Positions 1-13,719 of a DNA stretch of 34,642 nt are shown piece after piece. Both the position numbers and the translations under genes were made by a program. The notes under the pieces are model-generated. The model was not told the DNA's origin. It saw nothing but the letters and a program-made list of their open reading frames with translations, and made no database searches. Positions within the stretch are counted from its first letter, which is position 1. Each line of letters opens with the position of its first letter. The DNA lies in the IMG/VR virus record IMGVR_UViG_3300046787_000552, positions 1 to 34,642 of that record, one strand, 5' to 3'. The DNA is from a virus.

Positions 1-464
1 ATAAGAAACATCTTGTACAATACAATCAAAATATCTACACAGATGAAATGTCAGAACCTTATTTAAGAGTTTGGACAAAACCTGTAACATCTTACGCTAA
101 AAATTATTCAAAATTTGATGTATCTTTGGCCCCAATTAAAAACCATATGTTTAATAGAATGAAATCTCAATTAAAAGTTATTGAAGCAGGATTCTACAAG
201 AAAGCATTAATCGCCTCAAACATTGGACCATATACTTTGGATTTGAAACATTGTTTGAAAAATGGTGAATATGTTGATGGGAATGCTTTATTAGTAGATG
301 AGGTTAGAAACCACTCTGATTGGGCAAAACACATGGAGAAATTAATCAAAAACCCTAACATGGCGAAAGACATGGGAGAAAGATTGTATGAAACCGTTAA
401 GGATAAATATGATTTGAATATAGTAACAAAAGACAGAGCAGAATTTTATAAGTCAATTATATGA
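1..464 (+). CDS. Glycosyltransferase, C-terminal part (5' end outside window)
   Basis: The reading frame is open from base 3 with no stop upstream of the first ATG at 48, so this is the 3' part of a longer gene. The visible 150 or so residues look like the C-terminal Rossmann half of a GT-B (GT4/GT1-like) glycosyltransferase. A segment beginning FDVSLAPIKNH is followed by KSQLKVIEAGFYKKALIAS, the usual place of the donor-binding E-x7-E region. A helical tail (MAKDMGERLYETVKDKYDL) is typical of the end of these enzymes. The acceptor cannot be read from the sequence. The stop overlaps the next start by four bases (ATGA), so the two are translationally coupled. It opens the sugar-gene island that runs through the next 13 kb. 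Confidence 0.7.
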   Translation, partial: KKHLVQYNQNIYTDEMSEPYLRVWTKPVTSYAKNYSKFDVSLAPIKNHMFNRMKSQLKVIEAGFYKKALIASNIGPYTLDLKHCLKNGEYVDGNALLVDEVRNHSDWAKHMEKLIKNPNMAKDMGERLYETVKDKYDLNIVTKDRAEFYKSII

Positions 465-1162
465 TACACATACCATTAAATAAGATTTTATTTTTAGATA
501 TTGAAACCGTTGGTATTGAACCGACTTGGGAATCTTTATGTATGAATAGACCGGAACTTTCATTCCAATTTGAGAAATATTTTGATTGGTTTCAAAAACG
601 ATTTCCTGAAGATGCGGATGAAGGTCCGGGAAAAATGTTCGTAAACAGGGCTGCATTAGTACCTGAATTCTTAAGAATTGCTTGTGTTAGTGTGGCATTT
701 GTTGCACCTGATGGTACCACAAAAATGGAATCATATAGTAATGTTGACGAAAAAGAATTATTGAAAGATGTTCAAAAAATGCTTCATCGTACCGGTGAGT
801 TAGGATTTTTCCTTTGTGGTCATAATGTTAAAGGATTTGATATTCCTGTTCTTGCAAAAAGAATGATTATGAACGGGTTATTACCACCAAAAATATTACC
901 AGGTCATGACACTAAACCTTGGGAAGTTAAGGCACTTGACACTAAAGAAGTTTGGCAGTATGGAGGTTATGGTTCAATCGCATCATTAGAATTAATGTGT
1001 GTTTGTTTAGGCGTTGAATCTTCTAAGAATATGGAAGTTACCGGTAATAAAGTTCATGAGGCGTTTTGGGATAAAAAAGATATCAAAGGAATTGTTGAGT
1101 ATTGTGAAAAGGACGTTGAGGTATTGATAGACGTAATTAAAAAATTAAAAGAATTAGTATAA
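461..1162 (+). CDS. PolB-type 3'-5' exonuclease (DnaQ-like fold)
   Basis: A 233-residue protein consisting of a single exonuclease domain. Exo I is FLDIETVG (Asp13, Glu15), Exo II is GHNVKGFDIPVLAKR (Asp127) and Exo III is EYCEKDVEVL (Tyr214, Asp218). All four metal-binding acidic residues are present, so it should be catalytically active. The layout fits the stand-alone predicted 3'-5' exonuclease family related to family B polymerase proofreading domains. No polymerase domain follows, so it could act as a separate proofreading or DNA-processing nuclease in phage replication or repair. It is coupled to the preceding gene (ATGA) and to the following dUTPase gene (TAATG). Confidence 0.85.
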   Translation: MIHIPLNKILFLDIETVGIEPTWESLCMNRPELSFQFEKYFDWFQKRFPEDADEGPGKMFVNRAALVPEFLRIACVSVAFVAPDGTTKMESYSNVDEKELLKDVQKMLHRTGELGFFLCGHNVKGFDIPVLAKRMIMNGLLPPKILPGHDTKPWEVKALDTKEVWQYGGYGSIASLELMCVCLGVESSKNMEVTGNKVHEAFWDKKDIKGIVEYCEKDVEVLIDVIKKLKELV

Positions 1163-1779
1163 TGATTGAAGGTATTAACGGTAATCAAGAACTTTGGAAT
1201 GAAATCCAAAAACAATTTGAACAAATTAAATTAGAATCAGGGATAGACCCTGATGAGGGTTATCAAAAAGAACTTGAAGAGCTTTTGGGAATGTCATTTG
1301 AAGAAATGAACACCGAAACTGAAATTGCTATGAAAACAAGAAATCTTAAAGTTGAATTAATGAATGACGATGCGGTGTTTCCTAAATACGCATATCCAAG
1401 TGATTCAGGATTTGATTTATTCTCAACAGAAGAAATCATCTTACAACCTTTTGGACGTTCATTAGTACCAACAGGAATTAAATTATCAATTCCTGATGAG
1501 TATGAGGTTCAAGTTAGACCTAAAAGTGGGTTAGCGATTAACCAAGGATTAACAGTCCTAAACACTCCGGGAACTGTTGATTCCGGTTATAATGGTGAAA
1601 TTAAAGTAATTGTTTTTAACACAAACAACATATCTGTAGTAATCCCTAAAGGGACTAAAATTGCACAAGCTGTTTTATGTCCCGTAGTGAATGGGAAATA
1701 CGTCAACTTAGTTCAAGTTGATTCAATAACTGATGGAGATAGAGGTGATAACGGATTTGGTAGTACAGGATTAGTATAG
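1162..1779 (+). CDS. dut: dUTP diphosphatase (dUTPase) with N-terminal extension
   Basis: Hydrolyses dUTP to dUMP and pyrophosphate, keeping uracil out of phage DNA and feeding dTMP synthesis. All five motifs of the trimeric dUTPase family are visible: PSDSGFDLFS (79-88), RPKSGL (119-124), TPGTVDSGYNGEIKV (135-149, catalytic Asp140), GTKIAQAVLC (164-173) and RGDNGFGSTG (194-203). The core starts near residue 60. Residues 1-57 are an acidic, helical extension not normally found in the family. I keep the first ATG because it overlaps the upstream stop (TAATG). Met57 would give a standard-length enzyme and is the alternative start. Confidence 0.93.
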   Translation: MIEGINGNQELWNEIQKQFEQIKLESGIDPDEGYQKELEELLGMSFEEMNTETEIAMKTRNLKVELMNDDAVFPKYAYPSDSGFDLFSTEEIILQPFGRSLVPTGIKLSIPDEYEVQVRPKSGLAINQGLTVLNTPGTVDSGYNGEIKVIVFNTNNISVVIPKGTKIAQAVLCPVVNGKYVNLVQVDSITDGDRGDNGFGSTGLV

Positions 1780-1780
1780 T

Positions 1781-3406
1781 ATGGTAACAGTAGGATATTC
1801 AACAAGAACTCATAACCCTGAGTTCATAGAATACTTGAAGAAGAGTTCAGGTTTCAAAAAAATTGAGGTTATTGAAAAAATAAATAATGGTGAGAAATCT
1901 CTTTCTGAGGTTTACAACGAAATACTATCCGAGTCAAATACGGATATTGTTTTATTATGTCATGACGACATTTATTTTGATACGACTGCTTGGTATTCAA
2001 AAATAATCAAACATTTTGATAAATCGGATTTCGGTATTCTTGGAATGGCCGGGACTACTGAAATGCCCGAAAGTGGTATGTGGTGGGAGAATCGTAAGAA
2101 AATGGTTGGTATTGTTAACCACGAACATGAAGGGAAAAAATGGGAATCAAAATACTCAGATAGTCTTGGGAATGGAATTCTTGAAACAGTTATTGTTGAT
2201 GGTCTTTTCATGGCAATCCACAAAAAAAGAATTAAGAAAAACTTTAATGAGAATTTCAAGGGATTTCACTTCTACGATATCCCATTTTGTTTTGAAAACC
2301 ACATTGAGGGTGTTAAAGTTGGTGTAATCACCAATATTAGAATCACTCACAAATCTATTGGTCAGACTAATGAACAATGGGAGGAAAATAAGAAATTATT
2401 TGCTGAAACATACAAATCAAATTTACCGGTTAAATTACCATACGATGAACAAAGAAAACTAAAAGTACTAATTACTGGGTTATTTTTCAAAACATTTACT
2501 GGGTCGGAAGTCTATATGTTTGAATTGGCGAAAAGTCTTATGAAATTAAATTGTGATGTTACCGTAATGTCTCAAATCGGGGGACCGCTAACTGACTTGG
2601 CAAAAAGAAGTGGGATTAAATGTGTTTCTTTTGAGGAAGCTCCGGGATTCAAAATGGGTGATGGGAAATGGGGACATAATACAGAACAAGGTTTTCAACC
2701 ATCAACACCAAAAGTTTTGTATAGAGTGTCTGAAGTTAATTTTGATATTATCCATATGCAACATAAACCTGTCGCGGAACGAATCTTACAATTTTATCCT
2801 GAGATTGATAAAATTTATTCAATCCACTCAGAAGTTATTGAATTGGAAAATCCGATTAAAGACCCATCAATTAAAAAGTATATTGCAATAAGACCCGAAA
2901 TTAAGGATTATCTTATTAACGGATTTGAAATACCGGAATCAGACATTGAAGTTATCTATAACCCGATTGATAATGAGAAATTCAAACCAAAACCAATAAA
3001 AGAAGAAAATAGTGTTCTATTTGTTGGAACAATTGATTACCTAAGAAAAGAAACCATTTTAGACTTAATGGAAAGAACTAAAGAAGAAGGTAAAGAGTTG
3101 TGGTTAGTTGGGGAAGATAAAGGAAATTACTTACAACAAGTATTATTTGAACCTCACGTAAAACATTTCCCTCCGACTTGGAACGTAGAATCATTCATCT
3201 CACGATGTTCAGAAACCGCGGGAATCCAATTAGGTAGAACAACAATAGAAGGATGGTTATGTGGAAAACCGGGATGGATTTATAAAGTAGATTCAGGAGG
3301 ATTTATTCTTAGTAAAGAAAAATTTGAAACCCCGTTAGACGTTGAGAAGTATTATTCATCAAACGTTGCAAAACAAATAAAAGAAGAATATCTAAAAATA
3401 ATTTAA
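1781..3406 (+). CDS. Two-domain glycosyltransferase (GT-A plus GT-B)
   Basis: A 541-residue fusion. Residues 1-215 resemble a GT2-like GT-A domain: it starts MVTVGYSTRTHNP and has an acidic CHDDIYFD motif near residues 60-67, in the place of the nucleotide-sugar/metal site. From about residue 226 a GT-B domain follows, beginning KVLITGLFFKTFTGSEVYM and ending with TTIEGWLCGKPGWIYK, the donor-binding E region of GT4 enzymes. Two transferase domains in one chain suggest that two successive sugars are added to the same acceptor. It starts two bases after the dUTPase stop. Donor and acceptor are unknown. Confidence 0.75.
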   Translation: MVTVGYSTRTHNPEFIEYLKKSSGFKKIEVIEKINNGEKSLSEVYNEILSESNTDIVLLCHDDIYFDTTAWYSKIIKHFDKSDFGILGMAGTTEMPESGMWWENRKKMVGIVNHEHEGKKWESKYSDSLGNGILETVIVDGLFMAIHKKRIKKNFNENFKGFHFYDIPFCFENHIEGVKVGVITNIRITHKSIGQTNEQWEENKKLFAETYKSNLPVKLPYDEQRKLKVLITGLFFKTFTGSEVYMFELAKSLMKLNCDVTVMSQIGGPLTDLAKRSGIKCVSFEEAPGFKMGDGKWGHNTEQGFQPSTPKVLYRVSEVNFDIIHMQHKPVAERILQFYPEIDKIYSIHSEVIELENPIKDPSIKKYIAIRPEIKDYLINGFEIPESDIEVIYNPIDNEKFKPKPIKEENSVLFVGTIDYLRKETILDLMERTKEEGKELWLVGEDKGNYLQQVLFEPHVKHFPPTWNVESFISRCSETAGIQLGRTTIEGWLCGKPGWIYKVDSGGFILSKEKFETPLDVEKYYSSNVAKQIKEEYLKII

Positions 3407-3407
3407 T

Positions 3408-4565
3408 ATGAAAATTGGTGTTATCGGTGTGAGTGATTTAAGTTTATCATTTGCACTATTATGCGAGAAAGCGGGATTTGTTGTACAAATATCTGACGAA
3501 GATGAAGATATCGTATATAATTTGAATCAAGAGATTTATCTTACGAAAGAACCTTTATTACAGAAAATGTTGTTTGAGTCTGATGATTTAACTGCAACGA
3601 CAAACCCAATTGAATTAATTGAAAATTGTAATGTTATCTTCACATTTGTTGACACACCCCCAACTATCAATGGTGACAATGACACCACCAAAGTATTTGA
3701 AGTTGTAAACCATTTTTTTACCGCATCTCAGTTAGATAAGATTGTGTTTGATAAAAAATTCATTATTGGTACCACAATGAACCCCGGAGATGTTAGTCAA
3801 ATTCAATCAAAGCTGAATATGTTTAACATACAGGTTGGGTATAACCCTCATGTAACATCCGAAGGTACTATTGTTAATGATTTTGAAACTTCCGATATCG
3901 TATTAATCGGTACCGAATACCCTCAAGTATCAAGTGAGTTAATTAAAATTTATTCAAGAATTCAAACAAATCCAGTTAATGCGTTTGTCATGAGTTCAAA
4001 AGCCGCTGAGGTAACTAAATTGGCAATCAATTCTTATATCACATCAAAAATCACTTTCGCAAATACATTAGGTGAAATAATTCTTAAATCCGGATTAGAA
4101 CCGGAACGTGATTTAATCTTAAAATCAATGACAAATGATAAGAGGATTGGTGAGGGTAATTTCAAATACGGTTTTGGATATGGAGGATTATCTTTACCAA
4201 GAGACCTAAAAACATTTACTGAGTACGGACAAACACTTAATATTGACAGTACATTATTACAATCAATTAAAGAAAGTAATGATAATCATCATAAATTCCT
4301 AAAAGAATATTACATGACCCAAAACCCTAACAAAACAAATCCTTTTGTTTTTGAATATTTAGGTCATAAAAAAGAGTCGGATAGTTTAGTTGATTCTCAG
4401 TCATACAAATTATGTATTGAACTTCTTGAGGAAGGGTATTATGTGAATGTCATTGATGACTTATCTTTAAGTAAAAAATTAAACGAAATCTCTCAATCAT
4501 ACGATGGGAAATTAAAATTTTTCAAAAAAGGAACCACTCCTGAGGGGTATTTAATTAAACTATAA
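3408..4565 (+). CDS. UDP-sugar 6-dehydrogenase-like protein with altered active site
   Basis: A 385-residue protein with the architecture of the UDP-glucose/GDP-mannose dehydrogenase family. It has an N-terminal Rossmann start (MKIGVIGVSD), a VDTPP segment (81-85), GTTMNPGD (121-128), a central helix with Lys204 and Asn208 (KLAINSY), and a C-terminal UDP-binding-like domain from about residue 325. The active-site loop, normally GFGGSCFPKD, reads GYGGLSLPRD (257-266), so the nucleophilic Cys is Ser262. The usual PE after the substrate loop reads PH (147-148), and the NAD glycine motif is degenerate. Oxidation to a uronic acid by the standard mechanism is therefore doubtful. It lies between glycosyltransferase genes with gaps of one or two bases. 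Confidence 0.72.
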   Translation: MKIGVIGVSDLSLSFALLCEKAGFVVQISDEDEDIVYNLNQEIYLTKEPLLQKMLFESDDLTATTNPIELIENCNVIFTFVDTPPTINGDNDTTKVFEVVNHFFTASQLDKIVFDKKFIIGTTMNPGDVSQIQSKLNMFNIQVGYNPHVTSEGTIVNDFETSDIVLIGTEYPQVSSELIKIYSRIQTNPVNAFVMSSKAAEVTKLAINSYITSKITFANTLGEIILKSGLEPERDLILKSMTNDKRIGEGNFKYGFGYGGLSLPRDLKTFTEYGQTLNIDSTLLQSIKESNDNHHKFLKEYYMTQNPNKTNPFVFEYLGHKKESDSLVDSQSYKLCIELLEEGYYVNVIDDLSLSKKLNEISQSYDGKLKFFKKGTTPEGYLIKL

Positions 4566-4567
4566 TC

Positions 4568-5275
4568 ATGAGCATACGAATACTAATTGTTAACTTAAAC
4601 AATAAAGAGTACACAAAAAATTGTGTTGCGAATTTATTATCACAAAGTCATACCGATTATAAACTTACAATTGTGGACCAAAACTCATCTGAAGAAGGTA
4701 CTGAAGAGGTTCTAAGTCAATTAACCGATTCTCGTATAGAGATTATTAGAAACCCTGAGAATCGTCCGTTAAATCACGTATGGAATTGGTTTTCTCAAAA
4801 TTACTCTGAAGACATTTTATGTTTCCTAAACAATGATGTAATCATCACTGATAATTTTATTTCTGATGTTGTTGAAGTCTTTAATAAAGAACCTCAAGTT
4901 GGTGTTGTAGTTCACTCAACTAACCATGAAAATTATACAGTAAAAAAACCAACCTTAGAGTATACCGTTGTTGAAAGAAGTAAATTTATGCAAGGGTGGG
5001 ATTTTAGTATTAGAAGAAACCTATTCACACTAATACCTGAACAAATTAGAACATATTGTGGGGATGATTTCTTATATCATCATCTATATCAAAAGGGTTA
5101 CGACATGGCATATATAACCAGTTCCCCGATGATTCATTTTGAAGGTCAGAGTAAAAAGTTTATGAAGACTAGCGGTGTTGAAGACATCCATACTTATATT
5201 AGAATGGGGTTTCCACATTATCTAAAAATAAACCCGGAATTCTCAAGAATTAAACCAACGTCAATGTTCTTATGA
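4568..5275 (+). CDS. GT2 family glycosyltransferase
   Basis: A 235-residue single-domain GT-A enzyme. It begins SIRILIVNLNNKEYTKNCV, the typical first strand and helix, followed by LTIVDQNSSEEGTEEVL, the nucleotide-binding strand with its Asp and Ser. FLNNDVIITDNF, near residues 87-98, is the DXD-equivalent metal site. A CGDDFLYHHLYQKG segment near residue 160 occupies the place of the catalytic base (ED/DD motif). Length matches the small members of family GT2. Its stop overlaps the next start (ATGA). The acceptor is unknown but the context points to a surface glycan. Confidence 0.8.
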   Translation: MSIRILIVNLNNKEYTKNCVANLLSQSHTDYKLTIVDQNSSEEGTEEVLSQLTDSRIEIIRNPENRPLNHVWNWFSQNYSEDILCFLNNDVIITDNFISDVVEVFNKEPQVGVVVHSTNHENYTVKKPTLEYTVVERSKFMQGWDFSIRRNLFTLIPEQIRTYCGDDFLYHHLYQKGYDMAYITSSPMIHFEGQSKKFMKTSGVEDIHTYIRMGFPHYLKINPEFSRIKPTSMFL

Positions 5276-5937
5276 TTAAAATAGCAATCGCAACAAATAA
5301 AAATTTTTATGAATTAAGTTTACCGATAGTAATACCATCATTATTAGAAGCCGGGATTGAACCAAAAGATATTTTTGTTTTTAACTCCGGTTTTGATGTG
5401 TTTAATATGGAAATTATAGATGGGATTACTCATTACTATTTAGACCATAATTCATATGAATATAGTCCATTAATTGAAATTTGTGATAAAGAATTTTCAT
5501 CCGAATACTGGTTTTTAATTCACGACACTTGTAAAGTCGGTCCAAAATTCAAAGAATTGTTGAATAACATACCCGAAAGTAAACCTGAGAAATTATCATT
5601 AAAAACTTCTCCGGCAATGTCAATTGGACTATACCGATATGATTATCTACAAACATTAAAGGATAAATTATTATCTATTAAAAATACTGATTATAGCCCA
5701 CAATCCATGATGAAATGGAAAAAATGGGGAGTACATAATGAAGATTTTATTTTATGGAAGTCATCTCCTAAACCAATAGTTTATAATAACAATGACAATT
5801 GGGAAATTGTTGATTATGAAAATTGGTTTAACACAAAAATAACTAGAAGAACTGAATATTACCCATCATTAGATTTATATAAAAATAAGTCTAACTGGGG
5901 ACAAACCAATGGGGGTAATATGATACTTAACATTTAG
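5272..5937 (+). CDS. Hypothetical protein, possible GT-A-like transferase
   Basis: A 221-residue protein that I cannot assign with certainty. The start MIKIAIATNKNFYELSLPIV and the segment YWFLIHDTCKVGPKFKELL (near residues 82-100) resemble the first strand and metal-binding region of GT-A glycosyltransferases, with HDT instead of DXD. It is coupled to the GT2 gene before it (ATGA), and the FAD-enzyme gene starts three bases after its stop. It probably takes part in the same glycan pathway. No signal peptide or membrane segment is visible. Confidence 0.5.
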   Translation: MIKIAIATNKNFYELSLPIVIPSLLEAGIEPKDIFVFNSGFDVFNMEIIDGITHYYLDHNSYEYSPLIEICDKEFSSEYWFLIHDTCKVGPKFKELLNNIPESKPEKLSLKTSPAMSIGLYRYDYLQTLKDKLLSIKNTDYSPQSMMKWKKWGVHNEDFILWKSSPKPIVYNNNDNWEIVDYENWFNTKITRRTEYYPSLDLYKNKSNWGQTNGGNMILNI

Positions 5938-5940
5938 AGA

Positions 5941-6927
5941 ATGAAAATAGCAATTATCGGTGGTGGATGGGTTGGATGTCATTTGGCATTCAAACTGAAA
6001 GACAACCACAAAGTCACAATATTTGAAAAACATAAAGAATTGTTTACTGAGACATCATATAACAATCAAAATAGATTACATCTCGGATTTCACTACCCTC
6101 GTAGTGCGAAGACGAGAAATCTTTGTTTAGACACGTTTGATAGATTCATTAGTGATTACGGATTCATAACCAAAAATGTTGATAAGAACTTATATTGTAT
6201 ACCACAAAATGAATCATTTATTGATTATGAAACATTCAAACAAATATTCAAAGAATATAATATTGAAGACCACCCTCATTCACTAAAAAATATTGAGGGG
6301 TGTGTCAATACAAATGAAAAACATATTAATTTCAAAAAGATTAATAAGTTTTTTAATGAAACCTTATCTGATATTGTTGTTGAAGATAATATTACCGATA
6401 AAAAATTAGACAGATTACAGAAAGAATATGATTTAGTTATTAACTGTACTAATAACCATATCACGGATAAGAATTGTGATAATTCATTTTATGAAACAAC
6501 ATTAACTTTAATCTACAAAAAAATTACACCAATAGATTTTGATGGGTTAACATTAGTGGATGGGGATTTATTTTCAATTTACCCTTACGATGAAGAACGA
6601 TTTACATTAACCGATGTTGAGTATACCCCATTAAAAAAGTTTAAGACTATAAAAAAATTGAAGTCTTACAATAAGAAAATCACATCATCATTGGTTCATG
6701 AAAGAAAAAAATTAATTGAGAAAAAAGTACTAAAATACTATCCGGATTTCTTAAATCATTTTAAGTACGACACTTATTTTATATCAACCAAAACAAAAAC
6801 AAATAATACCTCAGACGATAGGTCACCTGTCATAACTAAAGAAAATAATTTAATAAATTGCTTTACAGGTAAAATTCAAGGGATATACTTAATAGAAGAT
6901 TATTTACGAAAAGAGTTATCACTATGA
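5941..6927 (+). CDS. FAD-dependent oxidoreductase (DAO family-like)
   Basis: A 328-residue flavoprotein. The dinucleotide-binding motif IAIIGGGWVGCHLA (residues 3-16) carries GxGxxG, and the acidic end of the second strand is present (KVTIFEKH, 25-32). The next segment, NNQNRLHLGFHYPRSAKTR, resembles the flavin-contacting region of amine or hydroxy-acid oxidases of the DAO family. The substrate is not evident. Within a glycosyltransferase island it may oxidise a sugar or a nucleotide-sugar intermediate. Its end overlaps the next gene by four bases. Such a gene is unusual in a T4-like phage. Confidence 0.7.
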   Translation: MKIAIIGGGWVGCHLAFKLKDNHKVTIFEKHKELFTETSYNNQNRLHLGFHYPRSAKTRNLCLDTFDRFISDYGFITKNVDKNLYCIPQNESFIDYETFKQIFKEYNIEDHPHSLKNIEGCVNTNEKHINFKKINKFFNETLSDIVVEDNITDKKLDRLQKEYDLVINCTNNHITDKNCDNSFYETTLTLIYKKITPIDFDGLTLVDGDLFSIYPYDEERFTLTDVEYTPLKKFKTIKKLKSYNKKITSSLVHERKKLIEKKVLKYYPDFLNHFKYDTYFISTKTKTNNTSDDRSPVITKENNLINCFTGKIQGIYLIEDYLRKELSL

Positions 6928-7964
6928 CAAGAGAAGAATTAACGGGTATATTTAACCAGTACTTAAACCGAGATTTCACAAATAAAGAATGGTTAAGTCA
7001 TGGGAATAAAGACCCTGAGTCCTTTAGGAGAGAAATTTCTAAATGCGACGAATACAATGATTTACAAATAGCATCAGGCCCATCACCGAAAATTGGTATT
7101 CTATTAACCGGACATATCCGAAAAAAAAATATCTTAAGAGGGTTTGTTAATTTTTTAAGTAAATACGACTATGACGTGTTCATCCATACATGGGACACTA
7201 TTGGAGTTAAAGGTGAAGAGATGAATCTTAATGCTAAAGAGGCTTACGATGAAGTGGTAAGTGAAATACGCCAAATCCCAAATGTTATAAAATATGTTAT
7301 TGAGAACAATAAAGAATATATTGACACATTAGAAGATGTAACTGGGTATTTTAATTTCTCATCACCCGAAAAATTCATTAAATCCCAACTATACTCGGTC
7401 AATTCTGCATTCAAACTTTTGGAAGAATACACGCAAGAATCTGATACAAATTACGATGTCATATTCAAATTTAGATTTGATAATGATATTACGTCATTCA
7501 ATTTTTTAAAAAATCAAATTGAAAACATTAAGAATAATAAAATCATCTTTGTACCAAATAGTGATTGCAATCACTCTCATTTAGATAATGGAACGTCTTG
7601 TTATGCTTGTGACAATATGTACTACAAACATAAATTGACAAATGTACATATATTCCCTCATACAAATGTTGTGTGCGATATATTTGCATATGGTAATTTT
7701 GATGCCATGAAAAGTTATTGCTCATTATACGAACATTATGACGAATTAAATAAATCTTTTTTATCCGATAATCTAAAATCTCTTGAAGTTAATAATAAAA
7801 ACGTAAAATTAACAGATGGTGATTATGTATTAAAAAAACATATTGGTCATGTAGAGTCTCTATATTACTTCTATTGTTCATACCCTGAAAGATTATTACA
7901 AATGCATTTGAAAGATTATATGTTAATTGAATCTAAATCAGTAAAAGTTTTATTCAAACGATGA
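6924..7964 (+). CDS. Putative glycosyltransferase-like protein
   Basis: A 346-residue protein. A variable N-terminal stretch of about 50 residues is followed by PKIGILLTGHIRKKNILRGF and then YDYDVFIHTWD. This pattern (GHxR with a following VFIHTWD) is seen in uncharacterised surface-polysaccharide proteins that are probable transferases. Near residue 177 FKFRFDNDI contains an RxDND motif that could bind metal or nucleotide-sugar. There is no signal peptide. It overlaps both neighbours by four bases, so it is part of the same translational chain. The family assignment is by pattern only. Confidence 0.5.
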   Translation: MTREELTGIFNQYLNRDFTNKEWLSHGNKDPESFRREISKCDEYNDLQIASGPSPKIGILLTGHIRKKNILRGFVNFLSKYDYDVFIHTWDTIGVKGEEMNLNAKEAYDEVVSEIRQIPNVIKYVIENNKEYIDTLEDVTGYFNFSSPEKFIKSQLYSVNSAFKLLEEYTQESDTNYDVIFKFRFDNDITSFNFLKNQIENIKNNKIIFVPNSDCNHSHLDNGTSCYACDNMYYKHKLTNVHIFPHTNVVCDIFAYGNFDAMKSYCSLYEHYDELNKSFLSDNLKSLEVNNKNVKLTDGDYVLKKHIGHVESLYYFYCSYPERLLQMHLKDYMLIESKSVKVLFKR

Positions 7965-8731
7965 AAATACTTGTAGGAAACACCGGATTAATCGGAACAA
8001 CATTAACCGAGACCATGGAATTTGATTTAACATTTAATTCCAAAAATATTAATAAATTTAACGAATTGGTTACCGAGGATGGTCATGAGATATACTTGTC
8101 TTGTCTACCCGCAACCAAATGGATGGTGAATAAAAATCTACCAAGTGATTTAGATAATATTCACAACATTATTAACATTTTAAGAAAACAAACATATTCT
8201 AAAATAGTCCTGTTCTCAACAATTGATATTTACAATGACTCACCTCTTGGGGTTAATGAGGATTACAAACCAAATTTTGGGAATTTAAGTTATGGAAATA
8301 ACCGATACTTGTTTGAACTAATGGTTAGGGAATATTTGGAATCGGAGGACTTAAAGGTGTTTAGACTACCAGCGTTATTCAACAAACACATTAAAAAGAA
8401 TGTTTTATTTGACCTGGTTAACAATAATAATGTCGACCAAATAAACTCAAACTCAATGTTTCAGTGGTACAATTTAGATAACCTACACAACGATATTACT
8501 AAATATTCAACTGAATTCCCCTACGAAACAACATTCAATTTATTCACAGAACCTGTTGAAACTATTGACATTGTATCATTATTTGAAAACTCAAAAGATT
8601 TGGTTAAACACAACAATATCAAAATATCTTACGACTATACTACAAAATACCACAATAGTGGTTATATTAAAACTAAAGACGAAGTTTTAATAGAAATAAA
8701 AAAGTTTATAGATGAAGTTAGCGGTAAGTAA
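7961..8731 (+). CDS. NAD-dependent epimerase/dehydratase-like protein (extended SDR)
   Basis: A 256-residue Rossmann protein. MKILVGNTGLIGTTL carries the SDR GxxGxxG motif (residues 6-12). LFSTIDIY (84-91) corresponds to the catalytic Ser/Thr strand, and YGNNRYLFE (111-119) corresponds to YxxxK with the lysine replaced by Arg115. It is shorter than typical nucleotide-sugar epimerases (about 300-340 residues), so the C-terminal substrate domain is reduced. Reactions of this family would be epimerisation, dehydration or 4-keto reduction of a nucleotide sugar. Its last 20 bases overlap the next gene. Confidence 0.68.
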   Translation: MKILVGNTGLIGTTLTETMEFDLTFNSKNINKFNELVTEDGHEIYLSCLPATKWMVNKNLPSDLDNIHNIINILRKQTYSKIVLFSTIDIYNDSPLGVNEDYKPNFGNLSYGNNRYLFELMVREYLESEDLKVFRLPALFNKHIKKNVLFDLVNNNNVDQINSNSMFQWYNLDNLHNDITKYSTEFPYETTFNLFTEPVETIDIVSLFENSKDLVKHNNIKISYDYTTKYHNSGYIKTKDEVLIEIKKFIDEVSGK

Positions 8732-9476
8732 TTTAGCATGGGATGTTCAAGATAATCAAAAAGTATTCAATTCACTTAATGAATTAGACATTAATAATGT
8801 TGAGGGAGTTTTATCTAAAATAGACAGTTGGGATAACCTAACCGAAGAAAAGATACAATCTTACTCAGACTTATTAAAATCTAACAACCTTGGTATTAAT
8901 TCTCTCCAATCATTATTTTTTAACGTGGAGTGTAATGACATATCAAATGTGGAGATAATTCTTAACCATTTCCAAAGACTTATCAATTATTCAAAAATCT
9001 TATCGGTAAATGTCTTAGTTTTTGGAACACCATCCCTAAGAAAAAAAATTGATGGGTGGGAAAATTATCTAATTAAAATCTTTACCAAATTAGATGAGAT
9101 GTTAGACGGGACCGGAATTTATGTTTTAATAGAACCAAATTCAAAAGTCTATGGGGGAGAGTTCTTCCATAACTTATCTGAAATCACTGATTTTATCATA
9201 ACAAATAAATTAAAGAACATCAGAACAATGATTGACACCCATAACCTATTATTAGAAGGAGACGACCCAATCACAGAAATTGAAACTCACTACCACCTAA
9301 TTAATCATATTCACATATCGGAAGAAAAGTTAAAACCATTAACAGACCATTCTTTCCATATTAAATTTTCAAACAAAATTAAGTCAATGGGATACGATAA
9401 AACCGTAACCTATGAATTAAATAAGTGTGATAACCTACAAGATACCTTGGAAGTCTTCACGGCATTATATCAATAA
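8712..9476 (+). CDS. Sugar phosphate isomerase/epimerase-like TIM-barrel protein
   Basis: A 254-residue protein with the pattern of the xylose isomerase-like/AP-endonuclease-2 TIM-barrel family. It starts MKLAVSNLAWD. Putative metal ligands are Glu in VLIEPNSKVYGG, Asp and His in MIDTHNLLLEG, His in HIHISEEKL, and the terminal Glu in TYELNKC. The complete ligand set suggests an active enzyme, unlike several neighbours. Likely substrates are sugars or sugar phosphates. The start lies inside the end of the SDR gene in another frame. An 18-base gap separates it from phoH. Confidence 0.72.
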   Translation: MKLAVSNLAWDVQDNQKVFNSLNELDINNVEGVLSKIDSWDNLTEEKIQSYSDLLKSNNLGINSLQSLFFNVECNDISNVEIILNHFQRLINYSKILSVNVLVFGTPSLRKKIDGWENYLIKIFTKLDEMLDGTGIYVLIEPNSKVYGGEFFHNLSEITDFIITNKLKNIRTMIDTHNLLLEGDDPITEIETHYHLINHIHISEEKLKPLTDHSFHIKFSNKIKSMGYDKTVTYELNKCDNLQDTLEVFTALYQ

Positions 9477-9494
9477 ACTACGATATTAATTTAG

Positions 9495-10241
9495 ATGCAA
9501 CAAAAACCAACTAAAGGTGGAAAACCAAAACCAACCCCAACACCAATGAGTGATAAGGTTGAGACAAGAACAAAAAAACAATTAATTTGTTCGTTAGTCA
9601 AAAAGAAAACTAAACAAAAGTTCTTATCCGAGAGTCAACGAAAATATTATGACATCTTACAGAACAGTCAGATTACAATTTGTTCCGGACCTGCAGGGGT
9701 TGGTAAAAGTTATATAGCAATGAAAGCCGCTGTTGACCTATTATTAGACGAAACAAATCATTATGAGAAAATTATCATCGTTAGACCAGCGGTAGAGGCC
9801 GAAGAAAAACTTGGAAGTTTACCCGGAGGTGTTGAAGAAAAGTTAGACCCTTACATCTTCCCATCTTATTATTTACTGAATAAAATCATCGGTAAAGAAA
9901 CGAGGGAAAAATTAAAAGATATTGAGGCCATTGAAGTATTTGCATTGGCGTACATGAGAGGGATGAATATTGATAATTCAATATTAATATTTGAAGAAGC
10001 CCAAAACTCAACACCAAGTCAAATGAAACTTCTTCTAACCAGAATTGGTTTTAATTCAAAATTTTTCATCTCAGGTGATTTAGAACAATTTGACAGACAT
10101 AAAGATAAAACACAGACCGGATTATGGGATGCATTGAAAAAGTTTCAAGATTTAGAAGATGTCGGAACTTTTGAGTTTAACCCGGAAGATGTGGTGAGAA
10201 ACCCACTTATTTCAAAAATATTAAAACGATACGAACAATGA
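9495..10241 (+). CDS. phoH: PhoH-like ATPase
   Basis: A 248-residue P-loop ATPase. Walker A is GPAGVGKS (65-72), and IIIVRPAVEAEEKLGSLPGG matches the PhoH family signature. The Walker B region is ILIFEEAQNSTPSQMK (163-178), with Glu167 where DEAQ is usual. SGDLEQFD follows as sensor region. The N-terminal 45 residues are basic and low-complexity; there is no PIN domain. PhoH proteins are common in phages of marine bacteria and are thought to act on RNA or in phosphate-stress-linked metabolism, but their phage role is unsettled. Its ATGA stop/start overlap links it to the next gene. Confidence 0.9.
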   Translation: MQQKPTKGGKPKPTPTPMSDKVETRTKKQLICSLVKKKTKQKFLSESQRKYYDILQNSQITICSGPAGVGKSYIAMKAAVDLLLDETNHYEKIIIVRPAVEAEEKLGSLPGGVEEKLDPYIFPSYYLLNKIIGKETREKLKDIEAIEVFALAYMRGMNIDNSILIFEEAQNSTPSQMKLLLTRIGFNSKFFISGDLEQFDRHKDKTQTGLWDALKKFQDLEDVGTFEFNPEDVVRNPLISKILKRYEQ

Positions 10242-10837
10242 GAATCGGAATAGAGTTAAATGGGGTGTTGAGAGACACCCTTAAAAAAATACAACAAGAA
10301 TATGAAAAATGGTATATTGAAAACCCATTTAGAGAAGATGAAGAAGATTCTTTCGTATATGAGGTAATTTCTGACGTGACAACATTAGACATCATGAGTC
10401 ATTTGAAGTTCAAGGATGAGGATGAGTTATATGATTTTTTGTACAAAGAACATACTATGGAAATTTTTGGACACGCGGGGTCTACCGAAGTTTCAAGTAT
10501 GATGGACTTTAATGAATTTTATTTAGATGTTAGAGATAATCACGACATCTTAATTGTTTCCGATGAGATGGGAAAATCAAAACCAGCATCATTATTCTTT
10601 ATCTCTAAGTTCGGATGTTTAGTAGAAACGGTGAAATTTTATAGTGAATCAACAATAAATTCAATGTGGGATTCAATAGACATTTTACTTACGGCAAATC
10701 CTAAACTATTATTAAACTATCCTGAAAATAAAAAGGTTATTAAATTTAACACAACTTATAATACGGATATTAACACGGAGCATTCAATTTCAACAATTAA
10801 AGAGCTCAAATCAAAAATAGAAGAAATTTATGATTAA
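10238..10837 (+). CDS. HAD-like protein with degenerate catalytic motif
   Basis: A 199-residue protein whose start, RIGIELNGVLRDT, lines up with motif I of haloacid dehalogenase phosphatases/5'-nucleotidases, but both catalytic Asp are replaced (Glu6 and Asn8). A central DILIVSDEMGKSKP matches motif II (Ser) and the motif III lysine, and SIDILLTANPK matches motif IV. The HAD fold is thus plausible but phosphatase activity is not. It may be a nucleotide- or sugar-phosphate-binding pseudoenzyme. It is coupled to phoH (ATGA) and overlaps the next gene by eight bases. Confidence 0.5.
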   Translation: MRIGIELNGVLRDTLKKIQQEYEKWYIENPFREDEEDSFVYEVISDVTTLDIMSHLKFKDEDELYDFLYKEHTMEIFGHAGSTEVSSMMDFNEFYLDVRDNHDILIVSDEMGKSKPASLFFISKFGCLVETVKFYSESTINSMWDSIDILLTANPKLLLNYPENKKVIKFNTTYNTDINTEHSISTIKELKSKIEEIYD

Positions 10838-11108
10838 TGTATTAGGAGAGACATATTATGTTGACTTAGATATGGTTGAGGAGTATATTGGTATTCCACA
10901 AGAACCTGAAGAAATTGAATCGGGGTCAACTGAGGTAAAAATAAATATTGTCAAATTTGACTTGGTTAAAATGATGTTAGATACTGTCTTAACCGAACAT
11001 GAAGAATTTGACGAAAAACTTGGGTCATCATTGGGTTCAAAAACAAGTATACCGTTTAGAATCGCTTTCAATAGCTTATTAAATAAAAAACTAATCAATC
11101 ATTATTAA
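10830..11108 (+). CDS. Small hypothetical acidic protein
   Basis: A 92-residue protein of unknown function, acidic in its first two thirds (EEYIGIPQEPEEIESGST) and with no recognisable motif, signal peptide or membrane segment. It overlaps the HAD-like gene by eight bases and lies three bases before a glycosyltransferase gene. Codon use and base composition match its neighbours, which supports it as a real gene. Confidence 0.55.
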   Translation: MINVLGETYYVDLDMVEEYIGIPQEPEEIESGSTEVKINIVKFDLVKMMLDTVLTEHEEFDEKLGSSLGSKTSIPFRIAFNSLLNKKLINHY

Positions 11109-11111
11109 AAT

Positions 11112-12164
11112 ATGGAAAATTCATTACAAGACAAAGTCAAACAGTCCATTCAAACTCTGAGAGACAAACAAGCAAGAATTTATCTTTTGGTACAAGATAC
11201 TAAAGGTAATGCCAGAGCCTCTGTTAGATATATCTATCAAATGGCAAAAACATTAAAAGACAATGGGTTTAACCCGATAATCCTACACGAGAAAGCCGAT
11301 TATGCTGGAGTAGTGGCATGGTTAGATGAGTCGTATATGGAAATCCCTCACCAATCAATTGAGGGTCAAAATTTACAGATTTCACCGGAAGACTTCTTAG
11401 TGGTTCCTGAAATTTTTGGTTATGTTATGGACCAAGTTAAACAACTTCCTTGTGCAAAAATTGTTTTAACTCAATCATATTCGTATATGTTAGAAACATT
11501 ACAACCGGGGCAAAGTTGGCAACAATTTGGTTTCATGAAATGTATCACAACCAACGCAAAACAAAAAGAATACATTGAATCTGTTATGAGAAACTGTTCA
11601 TTTGATATTCTTGAACCTTATATTAGTGAAGTTTTTGAACCAAAAGCACTCCCTCCAATGCCAATTATTGGAATCCACACTAAAGACCAATCAGACGCAG
11701 TTAACTTAATTAAAACTTTTTATCTAAAGTTCCCTCAATACAGATGGTTTACTTTTAGAGACTTAAGAGGTTTATCTGAAAAAGAATTTGCAAGTTCTCT
11801 TAAAGATTGTTTTGTGAGTGTTTGGGTTGATGATGATAGTGGTTTTGGAACATTCCCATTAGAGTCAATGAAATGTAACGTTCCTGTTATTGGTAAAGTA
11901 CCGAACTTAGTACCTGATTGGATTAACGAAGAAAACGGAACTTGGATTACAGACCAAACATTATTGGCTGACGTTGTTGCTGACTTCATTCAAAATTGGT
12001 TAGAAGACAATATTAACCCTGAACTTTATGAGGGTATGAAAAAAACCTCTGAAAAATATTCAGATAAACAAAAATTTGAATCTACGTTAATCTCTTTATT
12101 TGAAGGTTACTTAAACACAAGAGCAGATTCATTCGAACAACAAATTTCAAAAACAGAAGAATAA
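11112..12164 (+). CDS. Glycosyltransferase, GT-B (GT4-like)
   Basis: A 350-residue protein. The N-terminal half begins after about 20 helical residues with RIYLLVQDTKGNARASVRYIY, a GT-B first strand with its binding loop, and continues with a helix-strand pair (TLKDNGFNPIILHEKAD). The C-terminal half contains VSVWVDDDSGFGTFPLESM followed by CNVPVIGKVPN, the donor-binding E-x7-E-like region of GT4 enzymes. The start is supported by its position three bases after the previous stop. It forms a pair with the next gene, a GT2 enzyme, directly before the late sigma factor. Confidence 0.72.
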   Translation: MENSLQDKVKQSIQTLRDKQARIYLLVQDTKGNARASVRYIYQMAKTLKDNGFNPIILHEKADYAGVVAWLDESYMEIPHQSIEGQNLQISPEDFLVVPEIFGYVMDQVKQLPCAKIVLTQSYSYMLETLQPGQSWQQFGFMKCITTNAKQKEYIESVMRNCSFDILEPYISEVFEPKALPPMPIIGIHTKDQSDAVNLIKTFYLKFPQYRWFTFRDLRGLSEKEFASSLKDCFVSVWVDDDSGFGTFPLESMKCNVPVIGKVPNLVPDWINEENGTWITDQTLLADVVADFIQNWLEDNINPELYEGMKKTSEKYSDKQKFESTLISLFEGYLNTRADSFEQQISKTEE

Positions 12165-12165
12165 T

Positions 12166-12972
12166 ATGAGCAATACTTTATCACTTTCAATTATATTACC
12201 AATTAAATCGTCAAAGGCTAAAAACTTTGAGGAGTATTTTAATAAAGCAATTACCTCAATTAAAGACCAATTAGTTGGACCTGAAGAGTTAGTAATTATT
12301 CATACGCAAGAAGAATCACTAGTATCTTTCTTGGAGTCATATGATTTCGGAGACCTTTCAGTTACTAAACTATTATGGGATAAAACCCCTAATTATGCAG
12401 ACCAAGTAAACCACGGTATTAAAAATGCTAAAGGTAAGTGGGTTTCATTATTTGAATTCGATGACGAATATTCATCAATTTGGTTCAAAAACGTGAAAAA
12501 ATATACTGAGGCATATCCTGAGATTCAAATGTTCTTACCTGTTGTTGTTGAGACCGATGAAAAAGGTGTATTTGCCGGATTTACAAATGAAGCAACATTC
12601 GCAGCTAATTTCACACAAGAAGTTGGTTATTTGACTAATGAAACATTACAAGATTATCAAAATTTCCAAACAGCAGGTTCTGTTTTCAAAAAAGAAATTA
12701 TTGAAGATTTTGGAGGATTCAAACCATCAATCAAATTAACATTCATTTATGAATTCTTATTAAGATTAACTTACAACTCAGTAACTATTATGACAATCCC
12801 TAAATTAGGGTACAAACATACTAATATGAGAGAAGGTTCAATCTTTTGGAACTACAAATACGGTGAGTCAGTAATGGTTGAAGATGAGGTTAAATTTTGG
12901 ATTCAAACGGCAAAAAGAGAATACTTCTTCAATGAAGACAGAACCATAAAATTTGAACCGGAAAATGTATAA
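12166..12972 (+). CDS. GT2 family glycosyltransferase
   Basis: A 268-residue GT-A protein. LSLSIILPIKSSKAKNFEEY gives the first strand and helix, PEELVIIHTQEES the second strand, NYADQVNHGIKNAKGKWVSL the conserved helix-strand before the metal site, and FEFDDEYSS (near residue 99) the DXD-equivalent. A later QTAGSVFKKEIIEDFGGF matches the acceptor/catalytic region of GT2 enzymes. It starts one base after the preceding stop, and the sigma gene starts directly after its own stop. Its place next to late regulators, rather than inside the first sugar cluster, could mean late expression and a virion acceptor. Confidence 0.75.
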   Translation: MSNTLSLSIILPIKSSKAKNFEEYFNKAITSIKDQLVGPEELVIIHTQEESLVSFLESYDFGDLSVTKLLWDKTPNYADQVNHGIKNAKGKWVSLFEFDDEYSSIWFKNVKKYTEAYPEIQMFLPVVVETDEKGVFAGFTNEATFAANFTQEVGYLTNETLQDYQNFQTAGSVFKKEIIEDFGGFKPSIKLTFIYEFLLRLTYNSVTIMTIPKLGYKHTNMREGSIFWNYKYGESVMVEDEVKFWIQTAKREYFFNEDRTIKFEPENV

Positions 12973-13719
12973 ATGCAAGAAACACTATCTGCGTCAACAG
13001 AAGATGTTTTATCAAAAAAGAGGGGAAGAAAAACTGTTAATGTAAATTATTTTGATGTTAAGGAAGAACTAGCAGTTAGAAATTTTTTATTGGCGGAAAC
13101 TTTTGAAGAGAAGAATAAAATCTACAATGAGTTTCTAAGAGGTCCACTTGATAAAATGATTTCATCTATCATTAGACGATACAAGTTATATCGTAAAGAT
13201 ATGGATTTTAAGGATATCCATACAGATACACATTCTTTTTTAATGACCAAGGTTGATAAATTCAAGCCGTCAAAAGAAAAAAAGGCGTATTCTTATTTTG
13301 GAACTATCTGTAAAAACTACTTAATGGGTCAAATCATTAAGGACCAAAAAGAAACAAATAGGAAAGTGTCCTATGAAGATATCTCCTCAAGTATTGAGGA
13401 AAGACCTGACATGGTTTATAGAATTGATGATGATATTGTGGAATCACAAGTCATCATCAATGAATATTTGAAAGAACTAAAAGAATTTATTGAAAAAGAA
13501 TCCCTTAACGATAACGAAAGAAAATTAGGTTATGCGTTGATTGATTTGTTTGACAATTACGAAGAAATTTTCTCAGGTGCGGATAATAACAAATTTAATA
13601 AAAATGTAATTCTTTTATCCTTACGAGAGATGACGAATTTAAGTACAAAAGAAATTCGTAGTTCAATCAAAAGGTTCAAAAAACTTTATCTAATTATTCA
13701 GGTAAAGATGAAAAACTAA
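12973..13719 (+). CDS. Late-transcription sigma factor (T4 gp55-like)
   Basis: A 248-residue protein resembling the divergent sigma factors of T4-like phages, which direct host RNA polymerase to late promoters. A DIHTDTHSFLMTKVDKFKPS segment is followed by AYSYFGTICKNYLMGQIIKD (near residues 113-132), matching the region-2 core-binding/-10-recognition helices (SYFxxIxxNY). The C-terminal 60 residues are helical and basic. Family knowledge predicts that it needs the sliding clamp and a gp33-like coactivator, neither of which is in this window. The TATTTAT boxes before head and tail genes are its probable targets. Its start follows the preceding stop directly. Confidence 0.8.
   Translation: MQETLSASTEDVLSKKRGRKTVNVNYFDVKEELAVRNFLLAETFEEKNKIYNEFLRGPLDKMISSIIRRYKLYRKDMDFKDIHTDTHSFLMTKVDKFKPSKEKKAYSYFGTICKNYLMGQIIKDQKETNRKVSYEDISSSIEERPDMVYRIDDDIVESQVIINEYLKELKEFIEKESLNDNERKLGYALIDLFDNYEEIFSGADNNKFNKNVILLSLREMTNLSTKEIRSSIKRFKKLYLIIQVKMKN

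Follow-up and report, generated by a model that had tools for sequence, protein, structure and literature searches.

Sugar genes are already on record in freshwater Bacteroidetes phages that encode the ribosomal protein bS21 (Chen et al. 2022, PMC9723584). The available part of that report gives these phages genomes of 293–331 kb with a guanine-plus-cytosine (GC) content of 31–33.7%, a universal PhoH gene, reverse-strand head genes, and sugar and lipopolysaccharide (LPS) genes. Here we analyse a glycan locus at positions 1–13,719 of a 34,642-base uncultivated virus record, IMGVR_UViG_3300046787_000552 (the window), a genome fragment of a phage that very probably belongs to the same wider lineage. 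The locus contains a UDP-glucose dehydrogenase (UGDH)-like protein that looks inactive and a four-gene module, DAO–ORF9–SDR–TIM, which comprises a DAO-family oxidoreductase dependent on flavin adenine dinucleotide (FAD), an open reading frame (ORF) termed ORF9, a short-chain dehydrogenase/reductase (SDR) and a triosephosphate isomerase (TIM)-barrel protein. Unlike this locus, the available part of the earlier report describes no fixed-site cassette, cassette alleles, such a module or an inactive dehydrogenase.

Two other phage systems invite comparison. Pelagimyophages and cyanomyophages, which are likewise T4-like, carry a large hypervariable island rich in glycosyltransferases (GTs), the host recognition cluster, and have a UGDH among their LPS-related genes (PMC7029224). 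That cluster lies in the structural region with the tail fibres (VrlC to gp14), whereas the island in the window lies between exonuclease/dUTPase genes and PhoH and has near-constant GTs at its edges. Cyanophage S-SCSM2R has a glycan cluster with a NadE-like protein, a UGDH and GT10/GT11 enzymes. Its UGDH is 37% identical to the window protein and retains the catalytic cysteine, whereas the window protein has no NadE-like partner; no DAO, SDR or TIM module is annotated in S-SCSM2R. As far as we could find, there is no published description of the cassette architecture, of the module, or of the repeated joint loss of the UGDH active site and the NadE-like gene that we report below.

A hypervariable cassette between near-constant edges

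All phage relatives compared here are metagenomic, and locus counts from collection scans are to be read as 'at least', among the matches listed (up to 80 loci per scan). Between exonuclease and PhoH, 72 complete loci show 44 distinct centres. These 44 cassettes contain 578 ORFs, which fall into 105 families; 37 of the families occur only once. Variation is extreme even between close relatives: eight phages with exonucleases at least 94% identical to that of the window, the window included, use 36 families in their cassettes, none of which is common to all, and overlap with the cassette in the window lies between 0 and 0.27. Among the enzymes encoded in other cassettes are GDP-mannose 4,6-dehydratase, epimerases, DegT aminotransferases, hexapeptide acetyltransferases, methyltransferases of the FkbM type and others, and GT10/GT11 enzymes.

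The edges are far more stable. The GT2–GT4 fusion family at the left edge is present in 40 of the 44 cassettes, and the other four carry a second GT2–GT4 allele. On the right, the order PhoH, HAD-like protein, o14, GT4b, GT2b, sigma factor is kept with few gaps in relatives that extend that far. PhoH is ~93–96% identical to that of the window in six of the close relatives just named and 74% identical in one (L097), a pattern that exchange joints within the flanks would be expected to leave.

The gene order is far beyond chance, since both the flanks and the module are found again in dozens of contigs. The glycan locus is real, ordered and selectively maintained. Our best explanation of the whole, to which we give almost even credence, is that a lineage of large T4-like phages carries a hypervariable, serotype-like glycan cassette at a fixed site, and that the region is the allele of this phage. 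The near-constant edge GTs would be soluble, and phages would swap the central sugar-making genes, probably through recombination in the conserved flanks. In the window this middle consists of the DAO, the DUF7796-like ORF9, the SDR and the TIM barrel, plus partner proteins. The architecture of the cassette, the co-occurrence of the module genes and the residue losses are observed; the chemistry, the solubility of the enzymes in vivo and the acceptor are proposed from them.

A mobile module under purifying selection

The order DAO, ORF9, SDR, TIM is kept in 23 of 25 loci with a full-length ORF9, some of which are near-identical copies. The module also appears in quite different surroundings (L254, L257, L269, L271, L273 and L274), and in some relatives two GT47-like genes lie between SDR and TIM. 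Its divergence relative to the backbone is mixed: the DAO is 64% identical where the exonuclease is 98% identical (L092/L018), so that the module is far more divergent than the backbone, and 80% identical where the exonuclease is 88% identical (L003), a module nearly as similar as its backbone. Such a mixture would be expected of horizontal movement. Nonsynonymous divergence (dN) in the module genes is about 0.05–0.18 and synonymous divergence (dS) 0.6–1.8, a dN/dS of roughly 0.08–0.13 that indicates strong purifying selection.

The sequence signatures of three of the proteins reach beyond phages. The DAO matches its family profile and has an N-terminal FAD motif (I5, G7, G9 and G12) and an NQxRLHxGxHYxR motif, both invariant from phages to bacteria. 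The SDR has a YxxxR motif (Y111 and R115) in place of the classical YxxxK, and these residues, S86 and T87 are invariant in phages and bacteria. Decay was considered as the origin of YxxxR and rejected; since the arginine is invariant in bacteria too, it is a family trait. The TIM barrel matches TM0416 and ketose 3-epimerases (1.4e-12), and its metal-site type residues E141, D175, H199, H201 and E235 are invariant in 19 sequences from phages and bacteria.

ORF9 belongs to a viral superfamily in which 16 of 29 scanned members match PF25072 (DUF7796), a domain of unknown function; a profile search against solved structures gave no match. It is possibly a GT, though unproven. One viral contig (L300, 1047–8311) carries seven ORF9/DUF7796-like ORFs in ~7 kb, mostly head to tail. 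On other virus contigs (L277, L286, L287 and L293), ORF9-like proteins lie directly downstream of ~500-residue ORFs that have a methyltransferase-looking N terminus and are themselves recognised as ORF9-related.

The module core in bacteria and its proposed chemistry

We collected bacterial loci from public genomes solely by similarity to the FAD protein. Both SDR and TIM homologues lie within six genes in 43 of the 79 DAO loci, with TIM alone in 12 and SDR alone in two; SDR and TIM lie side by side in 40 of the 79. The bacteria in this collection include Alpha-, Beta- and Gammaproteobacteria, Clostridia, Brachyspira and Cyanobacteria, among others. With its TIM and SDR signature residues unchanged between phages and bacteria, DAO–SDR–TIM looks like one co-evolving set. 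Literature searches on DAO, TIM and SDR clusters found no curated family or paper describing it, and the core is apparently a conserved, uncharacterised bacterial neighbourhood. A 4-kb record filed as 'Bacteriophage sp.' (MT839812.1, L002) contains SDR, TIM, GT2 and DAO genes ~40–60% identical to Clostridia chromosomal loci, and because of this resemblance is probably of bacterial and not of phage origin.

In the epimerisation of decaprenyl-phosphoryl-ribose, the FAD enzyme DprE1 oxidises a sugar carbon and the SDR DprE2 reduces it back with inverted geometry. By analogy, the FAD enzyme of the module may oxidise a sugar hydroxyl to a ketone, the TIM barrel may epimerise or shift the keto-sugar, and the SDR may then reduce it to a rare sugar without a uronate step. 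Unlike the DprE1/DprE2 pair, the set in the window has an added TIM-barrel isomerase, and its FAD enzyme is of the DAO family and not of that of DprE1.

A dehydrogenase retained without its active site

The UGDH-like protein of the window can be aligned to the solved UGDHs 3gg2 and 3vtf. The catalytic Cys260 of UGDH, in a GGxC motif, is invariant in 229 sequences (PMC4794789). In the window protein it is replaced by Ser262 (GYGGLSLPRD), the glutamate of the invariant Pro-Glu141 in the active-site loop is replaced by His148 (NPHV versus NPEF), and the NAD-binding motif GxGxxG has degenerated to GVSDLS. The equivalents of Lys204, Asn208 and Asp264 are kept (K204, N208 and D266).

The catalytic cysteine is kept in 11 of 33 cassette homologues, and its presence coincides with that of a NadE-like gene (PF02540, 1.1e-49), which is found in 11/11 cassettes with a Cys-bearing UGDH versus 0/22 with a Cys-less one. 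The pattern can be seen at 3408–4565 of the window and in L066, L103, L105 and L113, among others. A Fisher p-value of 5e-9 for this association ignores shared ancestry, and a fairer figure is the count on the tree, which has at least three separate cysteine losses (a large clade with the window, L107 with L117, and L119). The NadE-like/UGDH pairing of S-SCSM2R is the same as in the 11 Cys-bearing cassettes. The simplest reading is that UGDH and the NadE-like protein together make a uronamide, and that the dehydrogenase is retained for another purpose once the pair breaks up.

We rejected the possibility that the Cys-less gene is a dying pseudogene, since these copies are full-length and have a dN/dS of about 0.11–0.17, indicating purifying selection. 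As judged from its residues, the UGDH-like protein has probably ceased to catalyse its reaction and been retained in a different role. Another reading would treat the whole centre as a set of host genes picked up by chance, now decaying and without present function. It would account for a dehydrogenase lacking its catalytic residues and for the way cassette genes come and go, and it is at odds with dN/dS values far below 1 in both the module genes and the Cys-less UGDH copies, with full-length ORFs and with the conserved order of the module. This reading is mostly refuted already and we regard it as hardly tenable.

Acceptor of the glycan

The cassettes appear to encode soluble enzymes: a loose hydrophobicity test is passed by only 6 of the 578 cassette proteins, four of them UGDH-like. 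Export machinery likewise escaped detection: searches for the initiating phosphoglycosyltransferase (PF02397), Wzx (PF01943), Wzy_C (PF04932) and GtrA (PF04138) families, which did give matches in control genomes, gave none in nine long relatives, and Wzy_C, the sole export family searched in the window, is not found there either. Polymer export is thus disfavoured. Soluble-looking enzymes and the lack of matches to export machinery make cytoplasmic assembly probable.

The likeliest acceptor would be a protein of the virion, and every strain would then wear a coat of its own. We slightly favour such decoration over modification of the host surface, by analogy with the chloroviruses, which glycosylate their virions autonomously using viral GDP-sugar enzymes and GTs without predicted membrane helices (PMC4691112); the cassettes resemble them in their GMD-like enzymes and soluble-looking GTs. 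The analogy is between different viruses, enzymes and hosts, and virion glycans are proven in chloroviruses but only proposed here.

It is almost as probable that the cassette instead alters LPS or capsule precursors of the host in the cytoplasm, so that competing phages cannot adsorb, and that cassettes vary because host surface polysaccharides vary. This is how the sugar and LPS genes of related bS21 phages (PMC9723584) and the GTs of pelagimyophages (PMC7029224) have been read in print, and in bacterial chromosomes DAO–SDR–TIM lies among GTs. Such a role fits poorly with the virtual lack of membrane proteins among the 578 cassette ORFs and with the lack of export, initiation, polymerase/ligase and GtrA families in the nine long relatives, though a phage could use host machinery.

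Modified bases of the phage DNA are a third conceivable acceptor. T4-like phages are known for DNA glucosylation, and the cassette genes sit among exonuclease and dUTPase genes. Thymidylate synthases of the relatives give no sign of dCMP/dUMP hydroxymethylation, as seven of eight have the canonical LPFNIASYG motif and the eighth is divergent, and neither hypervariable cassettes nor GDP-deoxysugar pathways suit base modification. A search for T4 beta-glucosyltransferase, run without a positive control, found nothing. We therefore consider DNA glycosylation very unlikely, in keeping with the sequence-only reading, which had ranked DNA as the less likely acceptor. That reading had also held that the genes suffice to make and polymerise a modified sugar. 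Neither half of this claim is supported, as residues required for uronate formation are missing from the dehydrogenase, and polymerisation finds no counterpart in the families listed above.

Several points weigh against a serotype-like cassette that decorates the virion. The proposed chemistry follows from fold class only, the functions of ORF7 and ORF9 are unproven, both the glycan and its acceptor are postulated, and most of the relatives compared are metagenome fragments. LPS glycosyltransferases can be soluble, so few membrane helices are compatible with an acceptor on the host surface as well. In many proteobacteria (L201, L207, L212, L224, L250 and others), DAO–SDR–TIM is followed by a small ORF of ~118 residues and a GT2; the one such ORF scanned is an EamA-like membrane protein, which hints at a lipid-linked sugar there.

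A bolder but doubtful synthesis would join these strands. DAO–SDR–TIM would be an undescribed, widespread sugar-epimerising pathway that acts on sugars attached to a lipid or protein carrier and not on free nucleotide sugars; phages would use the mobile module and some 100 swappable families to set a virion 'serotype'; and the UGDH, freed from its NadE-like partner, would repeatedly have become a retained non-catalytic subunit.

Gene content of the locus

The features of positions 1–13,719 are collected in Table 1. All reported ORFs are present on the plus strand, mostly end to end or overlapping, as the sequence-only reading had described, and its proposal of a glycan-making locus is borne out by five GT genes with six GT domains that have family support. 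Its higher count of GTs is not supported in full, since 5272–5937 (ORF7) has no family match in profile scans and 6924–7964 is DUF7796-related. Family matches confirm the exonuclease, dUTPase and PhoH genes, the DAO-type FAD oxidoreductase and the AP_endonuc_2 TIM barrel, and the late sigma factor has a weak match only. The SDR is real but of the atypical YxxxR type, and the dehydrogenase-like protein, though of full length, no longer has its catalytic residues. The view that an FAD oxidoreductase with an isomerase is unusual for phages is upheld: of 50,697 phage records, a single fecal fragment, probably bacterial, has them. As for the suggested co-occurrence across related phages, the module does travel together, whereas the island, with its 44 centres, is not one fixed pathway. 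The sequence-only reading had recognised neither the mobile unit nor the swappable allele at a fixed site.

Table 1. Features of the glycan locus and its flanks (positions in the window)
Feature	Position	Strand	Evidence and context
GT4 glycosyltransferase, C-terminal part	3–464	+	phrog_7162 E = 8.5e-21; constant left edge
DnaQ/PolB-type 3'-5' exonuclease, constant left flank	461–1162	+	PF10108 E = 2.4e-11, phrog_25228 1.6e-32; anchor in 72 complete loci
dUTPase, constant left flank	1162–1779	+	PF00692 E = 1.1e-27; in 44/44 cassettes
GT2–GT4 fusion glycosyltransferase, near-constant left edge of cassette	1781–3406	+	PF13712 7.8e-30, PF13439 5.8e-10
UDP-glucose dehydrogenase-like protein, probable pseudoenzyme	3408–4565	+	PF03721/PF00984; full-length
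GT2 glycosyltransferase, cassette-specific	4568–5275	+	PF00535 E = 1.1e-18; family 31, 5 cassettes
ORF7, unclassified, often directly upstream of DAO gene	5272–5937	+	homologues 54–81% identical, 7 loci
DAO-family FAD-dependent oxidoreductase, first gene of mobile module	5941–6927	+	PF01266 E = 8.8e-11
ORF9, member of viral superfamily related to DUF7796, possible glycosyltransferase	6924–7964	+	adjoins DAO and SDR in module
Atypical extended SDR, RmlD-like fold	7961–8731	+	weak match to dTDP-4-dehydrorhamnose reductase, 1.3e-5
TIM-barrel sugar isomerase/epimerase (ketose 3-epimerase superfamily; AP_endonuc_2)	8712–9476	+	PF01261 2.7e-14; start overlaps SDR end
PhoH ATPase, constant right flank	9495–10241	+	PF02562 2.3e-62; right anchor of 72 loci
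HAD/NT5C-like protein, constant right flank	10238–10837	+	weak PF06941 E = 0.018; 60–87% conserved beside PhoH in relatives
GT4-like glycosyltransferase (GT4b), constant right flank	11112–12164	+	PF00534 1.6e-5, just under cut-off
GT2 glycosyltransferase (GT2b), constant right flank	12166–12972	+	PF00535 7.1e-7; 63–88% identical beside GT4b in relatives
Putative late sigma factor, constant right flank	12973–13719	+	weak phrog_234 E = 0.0024; 76–94% identical in relatives

The GT4 at the left end is cut only by the start of the contig, its homologues in L003, L004 and L009 having 403–406 residues at 71–86% identity. The ORF7 homologues come from several phage backgrounds, and a fold prediction from eight of them was too poor for use (mean predicted local distance difference test score 47.8). 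GT4b has more than 550 relatives in viral contigs; neither it nor the constant GT2–GT4 gene has homologues among the 50,697 phage records. A promoter and terminator scan gave matches no more frequent than in shuffled sequence.

Lineage and a phage-borne outer-membrane receptor

The second half of the window has T4-type head genes on the reverse strand, and its major capsid protein matches those of Rhodothermus phage RM378, Flavobacterium phage immuto and Microcystis phage Mel-JY01. Contigs of close relatives, found through the exonuclease and GT4b proteins, reach 309–326 kb. Ribosomal protein bS21 is encoded by seven of the nine long relatives and was not found in the other two (G001 and G006) or in the 34.6-kb window. 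The lineage is probably that of large T4-like phages of freshwater Bacteroidota, and the host is probably a member of the Bacteroidota because the phages of Chen et al. 2022 (PMC9723584) agree with it in size, GC content, PhoH and gene content.

Between baseplate-side and head genes, the window also carries a full-length gene for a 900-residue TonB-dependent receptor (20014–22716, minus strand). Six viral contigs carry such a receptor at 84–86% identity, and it occupies the same site in the five contigs that extend past it on both sides, even where the neighbours are only ~33–58% identical (L342). The nine long relatives gave no match to it. This phage-borne outer-membrane receptor seems to spread on its own and merits separate study.

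Implications

The DAO–SDR–TIM neighbourhood is common in bacteria, yet we found neither a curated family nor a paper for it, and the cassettes amount to a catalogue of sugar enzymes. The linked loss of the UGDH active site and of the NadE-like partner, at least three times, offers a testable case of enzymes becoming retained non-enzymes. If phages swap glycan pathways at one locus, as bacteria swap capsule and O-antigen loci, the outcome would be a fast-evolving surface trait, and the surface of a phage, or the surface that it imposes on its host, could be typed from sequence alone.

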